Translations under genes and position numbers: made by a program
Shown here: positions 5,400 to 63,789 of the stretch, piece after piece
How positions within the stretch are numbered: position 1 is the first letter of the stretch
How the letters are laid out: each line of letters begins with the position of its first letter
Notes under the pieces: model-generated
Database searches by the model: none
What the model was told of the DNA's origin: nothing
The model's input: only the letters and a program-made list of their open reading frames with translations
NCBI GenBank assembly: GCA_019671135.1
Contig: JAHRHY010000019.1
Span: 372,001 to 436,000, forward strand
Direction: 5' to 3'
DNA length: 64,000 nt
Source of the DNA: Linnemannia hyalina
Taxonomy: Eukaryota; Mortierellomycota; Mortierellomycetes; Mortierellales; Mortierellaceae

Positions 5400-6340
5400 T
5401 GCATGAGGCAAAATCCGGATGCGTGAGGTGCTGGAGAAAAAGGAGAAAGGGGAAAAGAAAAAGAAGGGCAGTTTCCGTGACTGCGTGGACGCATGGTCAA
5501 AAAGTAATCGGAAATCTGGTCGTAGAAGAAACTCCTCCTTTTTTGCCTCGCTCTGTCGCGCGTCTGTCTCCTCGAGTCAGACCACTGAAGTCCTTCAGGA
5601 ACCACCTGGAACAAATCATGCCAATTGTGTGAGGGGTTACCCCTCTTGATGTGCCTTTAGTACACACTTCCATCCCGTTCATAACCATTTTTTGTGCTTC
5701 TCTTTCTCTTCTCTCTCTGCCCACACACGGATGTATCGGTGTCAACGTTGTTGTTTCCTTATTTTAGTTTTCACTCCGACCCTCCTTTTTGCGCATGCCC
5801 CATTGACCACCAAAAAGGAGAGAAACATGATGAGGATCGGCCTTTTTTGTCATTGCCGTTGTCTTGATGAGAAGAAATAACATGAGTCTTTCATACGGCC
5901 TTGTAGGTGGTAGGTGTAACACCACGACTACTGTAGTTCGCGCAAAGTCAAGGGAACATTTATTTCCAGAAAGCCACGGAACCGAGATGGAGAAGATAAA
6001 AGTAGGCTTTCTGGCGATAAGAATTCACGCGACGGATAGACAAACACGGCGCGTTTTGATTGATTCCTTAGATGGGAAGATTTGAAACAAGCACAATGTT
6101 ATCAATAATCAATGGTATGACAGCAAGCATTGTCACTCACCAGGAAGGAGAGCCCCACTTTATTTCCTTTACATTTTCTTTCCCCTCTTTCTTTCCCCTC
6201 TTTCTTTCCACTTCCTACCCCTTTTCTTCCTTTTTTTTCTTTCATTCTTACTTACCTTAGCAATTTACTCCATACATGCCACACGCGTGCTTTTCTTTCT
6301 ATCTTATTATCCCGGTTTTCCTCAAGGCCCTCTGCTCCCA
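5400..6340. other. Gene-free interval
   Basis: Open frames are short, low-complexity (Lys/Arg or Phe/Ser/Pro runs) and without splice support. Between about 6165 and 6245 the plus strand is a CTTT-rich tract. Confidence 0.5.
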
Positions 6341-6344
6341 CCCA

Positions 6345-6580
6345 CACATGCACATCCAACACTCGAGCCGTCATGGAAGAAGACATCTTCATCAATCAAC
6401 CAACGCCCACAAACATGACCAACCCACCCCTCCCCACTACTTGCAGCGAGTTCGGGACAAGGAAGAGAGAAGAAATGGACGGAGGGACGAGTAGGTGAGC
6501 ACCGACGATGGCATGAGGAACGAATACTAGAGAACTGTCTTTTAAAAGAAAAGTAACAATAAAACGAAGAAACTGACTAT
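6345..6580 (+). repeat. Diverged copy of the outer end of the 56-64 kb palindrome
   Basis: This segment can be aligned by eye with 63425-63690 in the same orientation (and with the inverted copy near 56560-56850). Shared stretches include 'atccaacactcgag', 'ttgca(g/a)cgagttcggaac/tttggaac', 'gatggcatgaggaacga', 'tgtcttttaa' and 'gaaactgactat'. There are many substitutions and small indels, so it is an old copy. Only the outermost about 240 bp of the palindrome arm is present. Confidence 0.85.
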
Positions 6581-54814: not shown

Positions 54815-55591
54815 TCAAGCAGCCAGCAGCTGCTCCGCCGCCTGCTTGTATGCGTTCATCGCGACCCGGAAAAGGCCTGGACCGACCGAGATACGGGCGA
54901 CGCCCAACTCGCGCAACTCGGGTACAGTCAGGTAACCCTCGCCTAATCGTAGAATGACATTCAAACGTCCGTTCAATCCGGTGACCAACTGCTTGACCTC
55001 CTCGCGCGATACACCACGACCACTGGGTCCACCCCAGACAAAGACCGTGTTGGCGCCGGCCTCCAAAAACGCCTTGCCACGCGCAATCGCGTCTTCGACC
55101 GTGCCACCATGACCCAAGACATCCGTGCGTGCGTTGACGGCAAACTCGGGTAGACCCGCAGCCTTGGCGGCCTCGACCGCAATCTTGACGCGGGACACAG
55201 CGTCGTCAAAGGAGCGCAGCTTGCGTTGCTTGGAATCCACATCCTCTAAGTTACAGCCGACGACACCCAAAGCGATGACTTGCTTGATCGTGTCCGCCAG
55301 ATCATCGTAGCCGTCCTGCAAGTCTGCCGTCAGTGGGATGCCCTTGGGGACGACTACCTTGGCAATCTTACTGATCGCGGTCATGTTTTGTTCCTTGGTC
55401 ATATCGTCGTCATAAACGCCCTCGATGGCAGCAATGGCATACGAGCCTGTGGCGACGGCCTTGCAGGTGGGTAGGGAGGAGACAATGTCCGCGGTGGCGG
55501 CGTCGTGGACGTTGGTCACCACAAGAGGGTTACCGGGCTGGTGCAGGGCGCGGAAGGCGGCAGCGGTGGCGTTCTGGTTGGTGAGCGACAT
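54815..55591 (-). CDS. Isocitrate lyase/PEP mutase family enzyme
   Basis: A single-exon 258-residue protein, normal length for the non-glyoxysomal branch of the ICL/PEPM superfamily. It has the alpha/beta-barrel order NPLVVTNVHDAATADIVSSL, then PLTADLQDGYDD (metal-binding Asp), VVGCNLEDVDS (Glu-Asp), FAVNARTDVLGHGGTVEDAI, and FVWGGPSGRGVSREEVKQLV, ending ELGVARISVGPGLFRVAM. Members cleave or form C-C or P-C bonds at 2-oxo acids (oxaloacetate hydrolases, methylisocitrate-type lyases, carboxyphosphonate mutases). The exact substrate cannot be told, and the lyase catalytic KKCGH is absent. The gene has no intron and is markedly more GC-rich than its surroundings, so bacterial ancestry is possible. 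Confidence 0.92.
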   Translation of the reverse strand: MSLTNQNATAAAFRALHQPGNPLVVTNVHDAATADIVSSLPTCKAVATGSYAIAAIEGVYDDDMTKEQNMTAISKIAKVVVPKGIPLTADLQDGYDDLADTIKQVIALGVVGCNLEDVDSKQRKLRSFDDAVSRVKIAVEAAKAAGLPEFAVNARTDVLGHGGTVEDAIARGKAFLEAGANTVFVWGGPSGRGVSREEVKQLVTGLNGRLNVILRLGEGYLTVPELRELGVARISVGPGLFRVAMNAYKQAAEQLLAA

Positions 55592-56440: not shown

Positions 56441-57155
56441 CCATATTTAAAAGAAGAGTCACACACATATGTCCATGGCACCTATGACAACGCGAATAGT
56501 CCGTCCTTTGTAGGACATTCGTTGATCAAAAATGTCCCTAAAATCTTTCTCATCAAGGGAGGGATAGTCAGTTTCCTCGTTCACCCCATTTTCTTTATTA
56601 AAAGACAATATGCTCTCGTATTTCGTTCCTCATGCCACCCCTCGTTAGTGCTCGTCCACCCGCTTCTTCACCCGTTCCTTCTCTCTCTCTCTCTCTCTCT
56701 TCCTTTGTTCCAAACTCGTTGCAAGTAGTGACGTGGGTTGGTCATCATTGTGGGCGATGGTTAGTTGGCGAAGAAGCCTTGTTCCATTACGACTCGAGTG
56801 TTGGATATGTGGGTGGGAGTGGGAGAGACCTTGACTCGCACGGAGGTCGAGGCGAGGGAAGGTTGTTCCTCGTCCGATGGTTGAGTGCCTTCATTTCTAC
56901 TTGACTTCCTGGTACCAAAGAGCAAACTGACGGATGCATGACATATCGTCGCTCCTCTTTTCTTTTTATTCAAGATACAAGGATCTCTCTGTCATGTTCA
57001 AATACTCAGGAATCATCATCCTCAATGATAATTAGACGCGACTTTTGGGGGGAAAAAAATAATAATAAACGGTTCACAATTGATCAGTTGAGAGGATTGC
57101 AAACGTTCCCCCCTTACAGCCAGCTCCCGGCACTTTAACACGCGGCACTCCGTTC

Positions 57156-57189
<34 letters not shown>
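57156..57189. repeat. A(34) tract in left arm (T tract at 63065-63092 in right arm)
   Basis: Homologous homopolymers of about 34 and 28 bases at mirrored positions, showing independent length change after the inverted duplication. Confidence 0.9.
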
Positions 57190-57192
<3 letters not shown>

Positions 57193-57614
57193 CCTGTAAA
57201 AGTACTCTCCCACCAGCCCAGCACTCTCCTTCAACAAACCTCTTTCCTTTCACGCTAAAGATGCACACGAGGCGTTCCGTCAAGATCCTACCACACCTTC
57301 ACCTCCGCACACTCTTGCCACCACTTCTTCTATCCCCCTCTTCTGCTCCGATTTGGCCCCTACTCAGCTCGTGGGGGACACTAATGCCTCACGTCGCCGT
57401 AGTAGAGAAAATATTTTCCCTCAGTTACCAATAATACCTCACAAAAGAAAGAAGAAATAAAAGCAAGGAACAAAAAAAAAGAAGCAACAGAAAAAAGAAG
57501 CAACAAAAAAAAGGAACAAAGAACAAAGAACAAAAAAAAAAAGCAAGCCCTCAGTTGCCTACAATGCCTCATAATTCCATAAAAAAAAGGAAGTTCGCAT
57601 TGAACAGAGCGCTT

Positions 57615-58285
57615 CAGACTTTGTATAAGTCATCACAGGCATAGTGTCTCAGACTATATGCAAGTCATCATAGGCATAGAGCCTCAGACTGTGTGCAAGT
57701 GTCATCATAGACATAACGCCTTAGACTTTGTGCAAATGTCATCATAGACGTAGCGCCTCAGGTTTTGTGCAAGTGTCATCATAGACATAACGCCTTAGAC
57801 TTTGTGCAAATGTCATCATAGACGTAGCGCCTCAGGTTTTGTGCAAGTGTCATCATAAGCATAGCGCCTCAGACTGTGTGCAAGTAATCATAGGCATAGA
57901 GCCTCAGACTTTGTGCAAGTGTCATCATAGGCGTAGAGCCTCAGACTGTATGCAAGTGTCATCACAGGCGTAGAGCCTCAGACTTGTGCAAGTCATCATG
58001 GGCATAGAGCCTCAGACTGTGTGCAAGTCATCATAGGCATAGAGCCTCAGACTGTGTGCAAGTCATCAGAGGCATAGAGCCTCAGACTGTATGCAAGTCA
58101 TCACAGGCATAGAGCCTCAGACTGTATACAAGTCATCACAGGCATAGAGCCTCAGACTGTATGCAAGTCATTATAGGCGTAGAGCCTCAGACTGTATGCA
58201 AGTCATTATAGGCGTAGAGCCTCAGACTGTATGCAAGTCATCATAGGCATAGAGCCTCAGACTGTGTGCAAGTCAACATAGGCAT
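57615..58285. repeat. 35-38 bp minisatellite, left arm, about 18-19 copies
   Basis: Units of the form 'tcatcataggcatagagc' + 'ctcagactgtgtgcaag', 35 bases, with a 38-base variant that reads 'caagtgtcatcatag'. Sequence variants (actgtatgcaag, actttgtgcaag, gacgtagcgcctcagg) are spread non-randomly, pointing to local duplication of units. Confidence 0.93.
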
Positions 58286-58639
58286 AGAGCGACTCCCATC
58301 CTAAAAAAAAGAAGACATGCAACATAACATAGATTAGCACCCCCATTACGTCTTCCTCCAACAGCATTTACCAGTGCTGGGAGGACCAGACGCCCCCTGA
58401 GGGGGACAGGGGGGGGGGGTAGTGACTCCTTTCGACCCCTTCCTGATACCCTCTTGTCACTAAAGTGATACGATGATAAAGAAGCTTTCTGATTAGTAAA
58501 ACGTTCGGGCTACGAAAATTATGTGTAGAGAAAAAACTAACTACACCCACGCGCGCACCCACTTTCTTTTCCTGTTGCTTGAAGGGAAGGGACGAGAAGG
58601 GAAGGGAAGGGGGGTATTTATCTTACTAGGCGTCGGTCC

Positions 58640-59095
58640 AGACGGTGGAGGCGGGTGTAACGAGGAGCAACGCTCGACTCTTGTTACACCCTATCTTGGC
58701 AGGGGCGGGTATAAGGAGGAGCCAGCTCAACTCTACTTACACCCGCCTATCTAGGCAGGGGAGGAGAAAAAAACCCTTTGGAGGGAGGCAGGCGGGTGTA
58801 ATGAGGAGCCAGCTCAACTCTACTTACACCCGCCTATCTAGGCAGGGGAGGAGGAGCAAGCTCGACTCTACTCAACCCTGTGAGGGGAGGCGGCTGGGTG
58901 TAAGAAGAGGAGCCAGCTCAACTCTACTTACACCTGCATATCTAGGGGAGGAGGAGCAAGCTCGACTCTACTCAACCCACTAAGGGGGGGACGGCTGGGT
59001 GTAAGAAGAGGAGCCAGCTCAACTCTGCTTACACCTGCATATCAGGGGAGGAGGAGCAAGCTCGACTCTACTCAACCCTTCTCTCTTGGTAGACC
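58640..59095. repeat. About 100-bp complex tandem repeats, left arm
   Basis: Repeated phrases 'gaggagccagctcaactctacttacacc' and 'gaggagcaagctcgactctactcaaccc' alternate four or five times with 'ggcgggtgtaa' or 'ggctgggtgtaag'. The mirror block is at 61302-61757. Confidence 0.85.
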
Positions 59096-59948
59096 TGGGG
59101 CTTGAGGGTGAGGAGGGCATCACTTCCTCCTTGCACCCTAACTTGCCACTAAAGCGATATGGATGACAGTAATTAAATCTCTGATGATTAGTACATAGTA
59201 TACTCGTAACCATGATGAGACAATCACTCAAGAACAAAAGCGCAGGAGAGCGTGGGAACTGGGAACCCTGGAGTTGTGTAAAGAACGCAAGGAAGGAAGC
59301 AAGAGAGCGTGGGACCTGGGAAACGAAGAGCGTGGGACCTGGGAAACGAAGAGTGTGTAAAGAAGGGGAAGAAAGAGTAAAAAAAAGTAGCGCAAACGTA
59401 AACGCTCACCCCCACAGAAAAAGACGAGGAGGGGGCAAAAAGAAAGCAAGTCAGACGCGCAACCCATACACGACAACTCAAAAGAAAAGGATTCCGGAGA
59501 GCGTGGGAGCTGGAAAACGACGTGGAGTTTAAGAACGAACAAAACAAGCAGGGCAAACACAAACGCTCACCCCCACAGAAAAAGAAGAAGAAGGAACAAA
59601 AAGAAGGCAAGGCGTGTGCTCTTGCACAAAAACACGAAGAAGGAAGAAAGAAACTAGGACAAAACAACGCACACGCGCACCCAACAACGAGAAACAACGA
59701 GATAAGGAAAGTAGAACGGGAAAGAAAGTGTGGGAGAGGATATACAACGCGAAAAACAGACACACCCTCTTTCGTTTTCTGTTCCTGAGAAAGGGAGGAA
59801 AGGAAAGGAAGGAAAGGGAAGGGAGGAAAGGAAAGGAAATGGAAGAGAAGGAAGGTGGTTTTCTTACCAGGTCAGCGGCGGTTTCCAGAAGAGGAGTGAA
59901 GAAGAAAGAGAAGAAAAGAAAACAACTGTTTTGGCCAGGGAGATTGCC

Positions 59949-59969
59949 TTTTATACCACGTGGCACGTG
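59949..59969 (-). promoter_or_regulatory. TATA box with two CACGTG boxes, left arm
   Basis: Minus-strand TATAAAA (59955-59949) preceded by two CACGTG hexamers (59969-59964 and 59962-59957) seven bases apart. Exact mirror of 60428-60448. Confidence 0.65.
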
Positions 59970-60126
59970 CAAGCAAATATTACTGCGTCATCTTGGGTGG
60001 CAAAGAGCAAGGGCGAGTGCGTGTGTAACTAGAGGGGTGGTTGACAGGGCTCTCAAAAAGGAAGTATACGAAAAGGTTTCCCATGCAATATGGGATATTC
60101 CCATCTCTCTAAACGCAGGACCTTCT

Positions 60127-60270
60127 CCATTGACCATGAACCAACCTTTGTCTGACTCTTGTTTCATTCGTCATCCATGGCCTCTCTCCGCACCTCTTAT
60201 TTCCCTTTCTTAATGCCTCTTCTGTCCTTCTCCAAGTAAAGGATGGTTGCATGGTCAATGGGTCCATGAT
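60127..60270. other. Palindrome centre (loop) with imperfect inner stem
   Basis: About 144 bases separate the perfect arms. The ends still pair imperfectly: CCATTGACCATG at 60127 is matched by CATGGTCAATGG at 60250, offset by nine extra bases (gtccatgat) on the right. That leaves about 88 bases of true loop. Confidence 0.85.
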
Positions 60271-60427
60271 AGAAGGTCCTGCGTTTAGAGAGATGGGAAT
60301 ATCCCATATTGCATGGGAAACCTTTTCGTATACTTCCTTTTTGAGAGCCCTGTCAACCACCCCTCTAGTTACACACGCACTCGCCCTTGCTCTTTGCCAC
60401 CCAAGATGACGCAGTAATATTTGCTTG

Positions 60428-60448
60428 CACGTGCCACGTGGTATAAAA
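60428..60448 (+). promoter_or_regulatory. TATA box with two CACGTG boxes, right arm
   Basis: CACGTG at 60428-60433 and 60435-60440 directly abut TATAAAA at 60442-60448. CACGTG is the core site of bHLH factors in fungi. The arrangement fires away from the palindrome centre, and the mirror copy fires the other way. Confidence 0.65.
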
Positions 60449-60529
60449 GGCAATCTCCCTGGCCAAAACAGTTGTTTTCTTTTCTTCTCTTTCTTCTTCA
60501 CTCCTCTTCTGGAAACCGCCGCTGACCTG

Positions 60530-60612
60530 GTAAGAAAACCACCTTCCTTCTCTTCCATTTCCTTTCCTTTCCTCCCTTCCCTTTCCTTCCTTTCCTTTCC
60601 TCCCTTTCTCAG
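60530..60612 (+). other. Well-formed intron in the right arm (mirror at 59785-59867)
   Basis: GTAAGA donor after CTGACCTG, an uninterrupted CCTTTCC-type polypyrimidine stretch, and a TTTCTCAG acceptor, 83 bases, starting 82 bases downstream of the TATA box. The left arm has the mirror copy. A transcript from the TATA box would have a short 5' exon with no ATG. Confidence 0.55.
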
Positions 60613-61301
60613 GAACAGAAAACGAAAGAGGGTGTGTCTGTTTTTCGCGTTGTATATCCTCTCCCACACTTTCTTTCCCGTTCTACTTTCCTTATCTCGT
60701 TGTTTCTCGTTGTTGGGTGCGCGTGTGCGTTGTTTTGTCCTAGTTTCTTTCTTCCTTCTTCGTGTTTTTGTGCAAGAGCACACGCCTTGCCTTCTTTTTG
60801 TTCCTTCTTCTTCTTTTTCTGTGGGGGTGAGCGTTTGTGTTTGCCCTGCTTGTTTTGTTCGTTCTTAAACTCCACGTCGTTTTCCAGCTCCCACGCTCTC
60901 CGGAATCCTTTTCTTTTGAGTTGTCGTGTATGGGTTGCGCGTCTGACTTGCTTTCTTTTTGCCCCCTCCTCGTCTTTTTCTGTGGGGGTGAGCGTTTACG
61001 TTTGCGCTACTTTTTTTTACTCTTTCTTCCCCTTCTTTACACACTCTTCGTTTCCCAGGTCCCACGCTCTTCGTTTCCCAGGTCCCACGCTCTCTTGCTT
61101 CCTTCCTTGCGTTCTTTACACAACTCCAGGGTTCCCAGTTCCCACGCTCTCCTGCGCTTTTGTTCTTGAGTGATTGTCTCATCATGGTTACGAGTATACT
61201 ATGTACTAATCATCAGAGATTTAATTACTGTCATCCATATCGCTTTAGTGGCAAGTTAGGGTGCAAGGAGGAAGTGATGCCCTCCTCACCCTCAAGCCCC
61301 A

Positions 61302-61757
61302 GGTCTACCAAGAGAGAAGGGTTGAGTAGAGTCGAGCTTGCTCCTCCTCCCCTGATATGCAGGTGTAAGCAGAGTTGAGCTGGCTCCTCTTCTTACACCC
61401 AGCCGTCCCCCCCTTAGTGGGTTGAGTAGAGTCGAGCTTGCTCCTCCTCCCCTAGATATGCAGGTGTAAGTAGAGTTGAGCTGGCTCCTCTTCTTACACC
61501 CAGCCGCCTCCCCTCACAGGGTTGAGTAGAGTCGAGCTTGCTCCTCCTCCCCTGCCTAGATAGGCGGGTGTAAGTAGAGTTGAGCTGGCTCCTCATTACA
61601 CCCGCCTGCCTCCCTCCAAAGGGTTTTTTTCTCCTCCCCTGCCTAGATAGGCGGGTGTAAGTAGAGTTGAGCTGGCTCCTCCTTATACCCGCCCCTGCCA
61701 AGATAGGGTGTAACAAGAGTCGAGCGTTGCTCCTCGTTACACCCGCCTCCACCGTCT
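61302..61757. repeat. About 100-bp complex tandem repeats, right arm
   Basis: Exact mirror of 58640-59095. Each unit holds a short inverted motif (gagccagctc / gagctggctc), so single strands could fold locally. Confidence 0.85.
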
Positions 61758-62109
61758 GGACCGACGCCTAGTAAGATAAATACCCCCCTTCCCTTCCCTT
61801 CTCGTCCCTTCCCTTCAAGCAACAGGAAAAGAAAGTGGGTGCGCGCGTGGGTGTAGTTAGTTTTTTCTCTACACATAATTTTCGTAGCCCGAACGTTTTA
61901 CTAATCAGAAAGCTTCTTTATCATCGTATCACTTTAGTGACAAGAGGGTATCAGGAAGGGGTCGAAAGGAGTCACTACCCCCCCCCCCTGTCCCCCTCAG
62001 GGGGCGTCTGGTCCTCCCAGCACTGGTAAATGCTGTTGGAGGAAGACGTAATGGGGGTGCTAATCTATGTTATGTTGCATGTCTTCTTTTTTTTAGGATG
62101 GGAGTCGCT

Positions 62110-62640
62110 CTATGCCTATGTTGACTTGCACACAGTCTGAGGCTCTATGCCTATGATGACTTGCATACAGTCTGAGGCTCTACGCCTATAATGACTTGCA
62201 TACAGTCTGAGGCTCTACGCCTATGATGACTTGCATACAGTCTGAGGCTCTATGCCTCTGATGACTTGCACACAGTCTGAGGCTCTATGCCTATGATGAC
62301 TTGCACACAGTCTGAGGCTCTATGCCCATGATGACTTGCACAAGTCTGAGGCTCTACGCCTGTGATGACACTTGCATACAGTCTGAGGCTCTACGCCTAT
62401 GATGACACTTGCACAAAGTCTGAGGCTCTATGCCTATGATTACTTGCACACAGTCTGAGGCGCTATGCTTATGATGACACTTGCACAAAACCTGAGGCGC
62501 TACGTCTATGATGACATTTGCACAAAGTCTAAGGCGTTATGTCTATGATGACACTTGCACACAGTCTGAGGCTCTATGCCTATGATGACTTGCATATAGT
62601 CTGAGACACTATGCCTGTGATGACTTATACAAAGTCTGAA
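62110..62640. repeat. 35-38 bp minisatellite, right arm, about 14-15 copies
   Basis: Inverted version of the array at 57615-58285 but about 144 bases (four units) shorter, the largest length difference between the arms. Confidence 0.93.
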
Positions 62641-63060
62641 GCGCTCTGTTCAATGCGAACTTCCTTTTTTTTATGGAATTATGAGGCATTGTAGGCAACT
62701 GAGGGCTTGCTTTTTTTTTTTGTTCTTTGTTCTTTGTTCCTTTTTTTTGTTGCTTCTTTTTTCTGTTGCTTCTTTTTTTTTGTTCCTTGCTTTTATTTCT
62801 TCTTTCTTTTGTGAGGTATTATTGGTAACTGAGGGAAAATATTTTCTCTACTACGGCGACGTGAGGCATTAGTGTCCCCCACGAGCTGAGTAGGGGCCAA
62901 ATCGGAGCAGAAGAGGGGGATAGAAGAAGTGGTGGCAAGAGTGTGCGGAGGTGAAGGTGTGGTAGGATCTTGACGGAACGCCTCGTGTGCATCTTTAGCG
63001 TGAAAGGAAAGAGGTTTGTTGAAGGAGAGTGCTGGGCTGGTGGGAGAGTACTTTTACAGG

Positions 63061-63092
<32 letters not shown>

Positions 63093-63789
63093 GGAACGGA
63101 GTGCCGCGTGTTAAAGTGCCGGGAGCTGGCTGTAAGGGGGAAATGTTTGCAATCCTCTCAACTGATCAATTGTGAACCGTTTATTATTATTTTTCTCCCC
63201 CAAAAGTCGCGTCTAATTATCATTGAGGATGATGATTCCTGAGTATTTGAACATGACAGAGAGATCCTTGTATCTTGAATAAAAAGAAAAGAGGAGCGAC
63301 GATATGTCATACATCCGTCAGTTTGCTCTTTGGTACCAGGAAGTCAAGTAGAAATGAAGGCACTCAACCATCGGACGAGGAACAACCTTCCCTCGCCTCG
63401 ACCTCCGTGCGAGTCAAGGTCCCTCCCACTCCCACCCACATATCCAACACTCGAGTCGTAATGGAACAAGGCTTCTTCGCCAACTAACCATCGCCCACAA
63501 TGATGACCAACCCACGTCACTACTTGCAACGAGTTTGGAACAAAGGAAGAGAGAGAGAGAGAAGGAACGGGTGAAGAAGCGGGTGGACGAGCACTAACAA
63601 GGGATGGCATGAGGAACGAAATACAAGAGCATATTGTCTTTTAATAAAGAAAATGGGACTATGGACGAGGAAACTGACTATCCCCCCCCCGATGAGATCA
63701 ACGAATGTCCTACAAAGGACGGACTATTCGCATTGTCTACGGTGCCACATCCATATGTGTGTGACTCTTCTTTTAAATCGCATATTTAA

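Follow-up and report, generated by a model that had tools for sequence, protein, structure and literature searches.

Palindromes of Linnemannia hyalina as candidate divergent pairs of an apparently noncoding transcription unit

Why do two long inverted copies of one sequence lie around a short spacer in a fungal genome, and what keeps them alike? The question is raised by a locus of Linnemannia hyalina (Mortierellaceae) within a stretch of 64,000 nucleotides (nt; contig C11:372001-436000, hereafter the window), in which the initial annotation had seen a near-perfect palindrome of 7.3 kilobases (kb). The palindrome was confirmed; its arms are separated by 144 nt (Table 1). The analysis covered this one genome (51.5 Mb in 50 contigs), and all family copy counts given below are lower bounds. 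Two aspects had been missed earlier: the arms are two copies of a putative transcription unit of which single copies exist as well, and the palindrome is one member of a family. Probably the palindrome consists of two divergent copies of a single RNA polymerase II-type unit, apparently noncoding, which are kept alike by arm-to-arm gene conversion. At the level of sequence, the pair structure, the existence of five palindromes with a common centre, the near-zero divergence of the arms in four of them and the strong conservation of the twin promoters are evident.

The perfect inverted repeat of the window comprises 2072 nt per arm (58055-60126 and 60271-62342). Beyond it the inverted match extends outward by segments of 649 nt (99%), 373 nt (99%), 142 nt (97%) and 110 nt (97%); read inward, the alignment of the arms starts at about 56443/63777. 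The region 57161-60126 has no substitutions relative to the opposite arm and only two differences in length, of 74 and 70 nt, both in a 35-nt tandem array. These are the four minisatellite units by which the arms had already been reported to differ. The outer parts of the arms contain substitutions, differences in homopolymer length and a 22-nt insertion or deletion (indel). Counted outward from the promoter, 0 of 2749 aligned positions are substituted, followed by 8 of 576 compared positions. Thus the inner arms are alike and the outer ones differ, as stated in the initial annotation, and its suggestion that such a gradient fits gene conversion is supported. As DNA, the centre of the palindrome is predicted to form a strong hairpin (z -13.6), as expected of any palindrome centre.

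The genome search proposed earlier has been run, and the arm sequence recurs elsewhere. The family is marked by the 17-mer CACGTGGTATAAAAGGC, which is mirrored in the two arms of the window. Its 17 listed exact matches in the genome all belong to the family: ten in five palindromes (the window, C11:808k, C12:321k, C33:602k and C33:700k), two in the inverted pair C33:445k / C33:457k, whose members are 12 kb apart, and five in single units (C33:651k, C1:2778k, C1:4014k, C48:2276k and C48:2322k). With at most two mismatches there are 22 genome matches, against 6 for a reversed control, and one of the five inexact matches sits in another arm-matching stretch. In other sequence collections CACGTGGTATAAAAGGC matched one phage contig only, taken as chance, and two longer patterns had no match there. 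The mirrored outward promoters of the initial annotation are supported by this distribution. Further partial matches to the arms are found at C12:1400k, C50:998k and C20:296k. The members of the pair C33:445k / C33:457k are 99.6% alike over at least 4833 nt.

The five palindromes have in common one asymmetric spacer of 125-135 nt, with p-distances from 0 to 0.136. Their arms are about 2.4-3.9 kb long, and they lie on several contigs, always inside a contig and never at its end. In four of them the arms are identical between 120 and 1150 nt from the promoter (0/1030 differences in the window, C33:602k and C33:700k, 0/1027 in C12:321k), whereas arms of different palindromes differ by 5.9-19.7%; the only closer pair is the window and the left arm of C11:808k (1.4%, 14/987). 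The recount over nearly whole arms, which starts 60 nt inside the promoter and goes outward, gave 0/2443 substitutions and one 57-nt indel in C33:700k, 2/2620 substitutions, both beside the spacer, and no indel in C33:602k, and 12/3487 substitutions with indels of 35, 128, 3, 130 and 1 nt in C12:321k. Arm identities reported by BLAST are lower (e.g. 95.3% in C33:700k) because indels and misalignment of the arrays are counted. In a tree of 17 arms, 13 of them different, the left arm groups with the right one in four of the five palindromes; in the tree alignment the branch between the two arms of C12:321k corresponds to about one change. Concerted evolution, i.e. arms more alike within than between palindromes, was observed in these four and not in C11:808k.

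The arms of C11:808k (C11:805264-811102) are 19.5% apart. In the tree its left arm is placed with the window and its right arm with C33:445k, and joining them is rejected (approximately unbiased test, p 1.4e-5). The centre and the right promoter are window-like, and the right side is C33:445k-like from just after the TATA box, flank included. Judged from these sequences, C11:808k is a hybrid. Since its left arm is only 1.4% from the window, the inner arms of the window should show about 39 differences if there were no homogenisation, and none is observed. This expectation assumes that the ancestor was already palindromic, as is suggested by the centre and left arm that C11:808k shares with the window. 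Between C33:602k and C33:700k the similarity is 78-79% in the left flanks (over 854 and 571 nt) and 94% in the arms; this contrast may be due to exchange between palindromes or to constraint.

Each arm carries, in outward order, a promoter block with TATAAAAG, a donor-like CTG/GTAAGA, a pyrimidine-rich stretch, an array of short hairpins, a conserved block, an acceptor-like T tract with AG, the 35-nt array and a dispersed repeat R with AATAAA. In the promoter block, the window and C33:602k differ at 2/117 positions, compared with 176/933 in the arms and 13/135 in the spacers of this one pair (Fisher p 6e-8 against the arms and 0.008 against the spacer). Because the block diverges far less than arms and spacer, transcription of the unit is argued to be under selection. 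The conserved block is 183 nt long in the window and 262-266 nt long in the C33-type arms.

The unit looks noncoding, because there is no long common frame and no Pfam match, although small peptides are still possible. The survey of outward-strand ATG frames of at least 30 amino acids (aa) in eight arms found no long reading frame common to all of them, and a protein gene was provisionally rejected on this ground, with room left for short frames. The longest frame (C33:602k, 184 aa) has a 55% match to one of 115 aa in C33:700k. The window and several other arms share a frame of 36-42 aa within the conserved block, with 87.5% identity to that of C33:602k over 32 aa. This frame overlaps another one, and its variable columns number 12, 13 and 13 by codon position in six arms, i.e. 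without excess at the third position. Arm frames of 179 and 199 aa have no Pfam match, and the window has no Rfam match at gathering score. A relaxed Rfam search of six loci gave 13 matches to small nucleolar RNAs (snoRNAs), small Cajal body-specific RNAs and microRNAs, including weak box C/D ones, all 13 below gathering score. The earlier verdict of no recognisable gene therefore stands as far as Pfam (the two arm frames scanned) and Rfam gathering scores are concerned, but has to be softened in view of the short frames, which are unexplained. In the C33-type arms there is also a region of a 60-aa frame with 1, 2 and 6 variable columns by codon position (six arms), mostly third; it is deleted from window-type arms.

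Possible traces of the origin of the palindromes are retained by single units. In C1:2778k and C1:4014k the spacer is kept, partly deleted in each, and is surrounded by an inverted repeat of 29 nt (86%) or 41 nt (83%). The two units share about 60 nt of flank beyond this repeat and are far apart in the midpoint-rooted tree. The simplest reading would take the short hairpin as the ancestral state, from which the long palindrome arose, once or repeatedly, by snap-back or a template switch at that place. C33:445k keeps the spacer with a different left flank, and C33:651k matches from the promoter onward only. In the scheme that we propose, a short inverted repeat before the promoter would have snapped back or switched template, yielding a mirror copy of the unit. 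The arms would then pair, and gene conversion, strongest near the centre, would erase differences while the outer ends escape it. Finally, selection would retain both promoters, so that the locus might yield a double dose of one RNA.

Several points weigh against a noncoding unit homogenised by conversion. The contrast between inner and outer substitutions in the window (nominal Fisher p 8e-7, with the inner count entered as 2750) was calculated with a cut picked post hoc, when the data had already been seen. In C12:321k the bins up to 3500 nt contain 10 substitutions, all of them at 1250-2500 nt, i.e. they are mid-arm and form no simple gradient; this part lies partly in tandem arrays, where the alignment is uncertain. 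Polishing of the assembly could have smoothed differences between arms of less than about 1%. Transcription, splicing and polyadenylation of the unit are deduced from motifs. A small peptide may possibly be made from the shared short frames, e.g. that of 36-42 aa. The fold of the conserved block is weak (RNAalifold -13.9 kcal, covariation term +0.53, 16 sequences): the consensus structure has double changes in 3 of 27 pairs, and the shuffle z values are -0.22 and -1.70. The single unit C1:2778k is nested inside the palindromes in the tree (support 83/100), and because of this the palindromes may have formed more than once. Finally, C33:602k and C33:700k differ in their right-hand ends, which independent recent formation would also produce.

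The last two points belong to a rather unlikely alternative, which dispenses with gene conversion. On this view every palindrome would be of recent and independent origin, made from a single unit by hairpin snap-back, and the arms would be identical because they are young. This agrees with the short hairpin and common flank retained by two single units, and with the arms of C33:602k and C33:700k being alike right to the compared ends. However, divergence in the window is uneven along the arms, and C11:808k has the centre and left arm of the window and is nevertheless 1.4% diverged. If the palindrome arose once, this sharing means that it predates the split between the window and C11:808k. Arm-to-arm conversion in a pair of divergent units remains our preferred explanation.

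Another possibility, put forward in the initial annotation, is long double-stranded RNA from a hairpin locus feeding small-RNA silencing. The arms are indeed perfectly complementary over 2 kb. However, the twin conserved promoters point outward (no systematic search was made for promoters crossing the centre) and would give two RNAs of one sequence, not complementary ones. Thus double-stranded RNA is unsupported, readthrough from outside would be needed to make it, and we consider such a locus improbable.

It is slightly less probable still that the palindrome is a Foldback-type transposon, in which long inverted repeats with internal tandem repeats enclose a small middle. The long inverted arms, the 35-nt tandem array in each of them and the several genome copies fit this description, as does the outer end shared with a small dispersed repeat, a layout resembling that described for Tetris/DAIBAM (PMC4079207). 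The likeness to Tetris extends to the small noncoding middle and to the sharing of the outer end with a miniature element (PMC4079207). Copies of Tetris in Drosophila virilis are described as having target duplications of 8-10 base pairs (PMC4079207); unlike them, the four fungal palindromes tested (C11:808k excluded) show no target-site word longer than 5 nt, and the outer ends differ between copies. Single units with conserved promoters also argue against a transposon. No transposase domain was found in the two arm frames of the window and eight flanking frames scanned, the genome not having been searched for transposases. The outer 80 nt were considered as terminal inverted repeats, as in Tetris, and the two ends in the window were aligned with 12 loci. 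The sharp GATCAACG end of the dispersed repeat faces the palindrome, and the outermost 80 nt are therefore probably not the tips of a transposon carrying it; this orientation is not watertight, as the second inverted copy within that repeat is preceded by shared sequence. With short target-site words, unshared outer ends and no transposase domain in ten frames, the mobile element listed among the earlier options finds little room.

An assembly artefact (a read-through hairpin read, or collapsed or duplicated contig ends), of which perfect inner identity is typical, is hardly credible: the arms of the window show real, graded differences, the very point raised against read-through in the initial annotation, the same centre occurs at five separate places with arms mostly 5.9-19.7% apart, the arms of C11:808k are unlike, and none of the palindromes is at a contig end.

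The repeats inside the arms may hint at what the RNA would do. In the hairpin array, stem position 6 occurs as C-G, T-G and T-A, whereas another stem position is mostly T-T. Paired cells number 187 of 248, a value reached by 1 of 1000 shuffles (shuffled mean 174.5); this result is inflated, as units starting with GGG were also counted as GG. In one hairpin of the conserved block (alignment columns 246-292), each base pair is disrupted or gapped in no more than 1 to 3 of the 16 sequences. For the 35-nt array, conservation is 0.94 in the box C/D-like columns and 0.87 in the others, and an equally high value was obtained with 3 of 37 shifts. The test comprised 41 distinct units of nine arms, the anchors having failed in the left arm of C11:808k.

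The RUGAUGA and CUGA motifs that recur in clusters of box C/D snoRNAs, flanked by short stems, have a counterpart in the tandem array of the arm unit, which may be spliced. The array units are only about 35 nt long, and the boxes are only slightly more conserved than the rest. The RNA structure and the box C/D-like repeats are no more than suggestive, and that hairpin arrays and the tandem array make a protein-binding RNA is a guess. Carried further, it leads to a tentative model, which we put forward with considerable reserve: a Mortierellaceae-specific family of long noncoding RNAs whose hairpin and box C/D-like kink-turn arrays would bind many copies of one protein, with the palindromes as high-dose loci and conversion keeping the RNA uniform at several loci. 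As part of the same model, the mirror layout would represent two identical genes served by one bidirectional promoter centre.

Palindromes with gene conversion are known chiefly from sex chromosomes, and are interpreted there as a remedy for the lack of recombination. In mammalian sex-chromosome palindromes the arms, which enclose a spacer, are described as more than 99% alike owing to arm-to-arm gene conversion; they can exceed 1 Mb, and their median length is 37 kb in the X set used (PMC8981503). The fungal palindromes are similar in having large, near-identical inverted arms around a spacer, and differ in the size of the arms (about 2.4-3.9 kb), in their occurrence on several contigs and in a unit without a long shared protein frame (PMC8981503). 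On the W chromosome of willow, two palindromes of over 200 kb, sex-linked and with protein genes, are reported with evidence for gene conversion (PMC7023750). They are, like the fungal ones, palindromes outside mammals with such evidence, and unlike them are large, sex-linked and protein-coding (PMC7023750). Compared with these known cases, the fungal set is distinguished by its small scale, its several loci and its apparently noncoding unit. With single units, a hybrid whose arms are unlike and a recognisable seed hairpin all in one genome, it would allow the formation, maintenance and decay of palindromes to be tested in an organism that can be cultured. The conservation of the twin promoters also appears to point to a noncoding gene family, of which no description was found among the papers listed by the literature search; most subscription journals were outside the scope of that search.

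Table 1. Features of the palindrome and its arms (positions in the window)
Feature	Position	Strand	Basis or remark
Left arm	56443..60126	-	Putative unit transcribed outward (leftward); inverted-repeat search and arm alignment
Central spacer	60127..60270	.	144 nt, asymmetric, with nested stem; alike in five palindromes
Right arm	60271..63777	+	Putative unit transcribed outward (rightward); inverted-repeat search and arm alignment
Conserved promoter block, right	60333..60452	+	TATAAAAG inside; 17-mer CACGTGGTATAAAAGGC at 60435-60451 (+)
Conserved promoter block, left	59945..60064	-	17-mer CACGTGGTATAAAAGGC at 59946-59962 (-)
First donor-like splice site, CTGACCTG/GTAAGA	60520..60535	+	Predicted from sequence
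Array of short hairpin units, right arm	61318..61760	+	Repeat search
Array of short hairpin units, left arm	58650..59078	-	Repeat search
Conserved block common to dispersed loci, with conserved hairpin, right arm	61884..62066	+	Alignment
Conserved block, left arm	58331..58513	-	Alignment
Acceptor-like splice site (T tract, then AG)	62086..62096	+	Predicted from sequence
35-nt tandem array with box C/D-like motifs, right arm	62107..62639	+	Repeat search
35-nt tandem array, left arm	57614..58290	-	Repeat search; four units longer
Dispersed repeat R, outer end of right arm	63395..63681	+	AATAAA at 63643-63648
Dispersed repeat R, outer end of left arm	56557..56855	-	AATAAA at 56594-56599, minus strand
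Truncated end of dispersed repeat, GATCAACG end facing the palindrome, right	63696..63777	+	Alignment
Truncated end of dispersed repeat, left	56448..56527	-	90% like the right one

The conserved block was also found at nine other loci (C48:1525.9k, C3:1015.7k, C7:897.2k, C8:1177.0k, C2:321.1k, C4:1621.7k, C1:3134.4k, C5:209.2k and C5:690.4k), a lower bound, since further short partial matches were left uncounted. Seven of the nine were aligned, and most of these have a 5' exon-like motif with GTAAG, the conserved block, and a T tract and AG followed by GATGAG or a near form. The dispersed unit sits between open frames of at least 281 aa at six of the seven; at C8:1177k no frame exceeds 209 aa. 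Among ten neighbouring frames from those six loci, seven have Pfam domains, including glutamine synthetase, ABC transporter and a TOR-like kinase, and three have none.

The protein adjoining the palindrome in the window (54818-55591) belongs to the PEP mutase family. Its closest named match is from Entomortierella parvispora (84% identical), likewise a member of the Mortierellaceae, there being two nearer matches of 94 and 87%; the next named matches carry names such as Podila, Mortierella and Linnemannia.

Repeat R is about 290 nt long and occupies at least some thirty places in the genome, with a third copy in the window at 6335-6580 besides those of the table. It adjoins family arms in both orientations and is also found just upstream of the C3:1015k unit. 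Two mirrored tRNA calls made by ARAGORN (56802-56900 and 63348-63446), with a four-base anticodon, overlap repeat R and are probably spurious. The dispersed repeat with the GATCAACG end forms, at several loci, an inverted pair about 250 nt long with an internal short hairpin.

The two units of the pair C33:445k / C33:457k face each other within an inverted duplication (C33:443001-460220). It has a 7.5-kb centre with a polysaccharide deacetylase frame, and carries a doubled frame of 498 aa without Pfam match. A stretch of 1.4 kb inside this duplication (C33:452527-453988) and one adjoining a single unit on C1 (C1:2777158-2778604) are 79% alike and match only each other.

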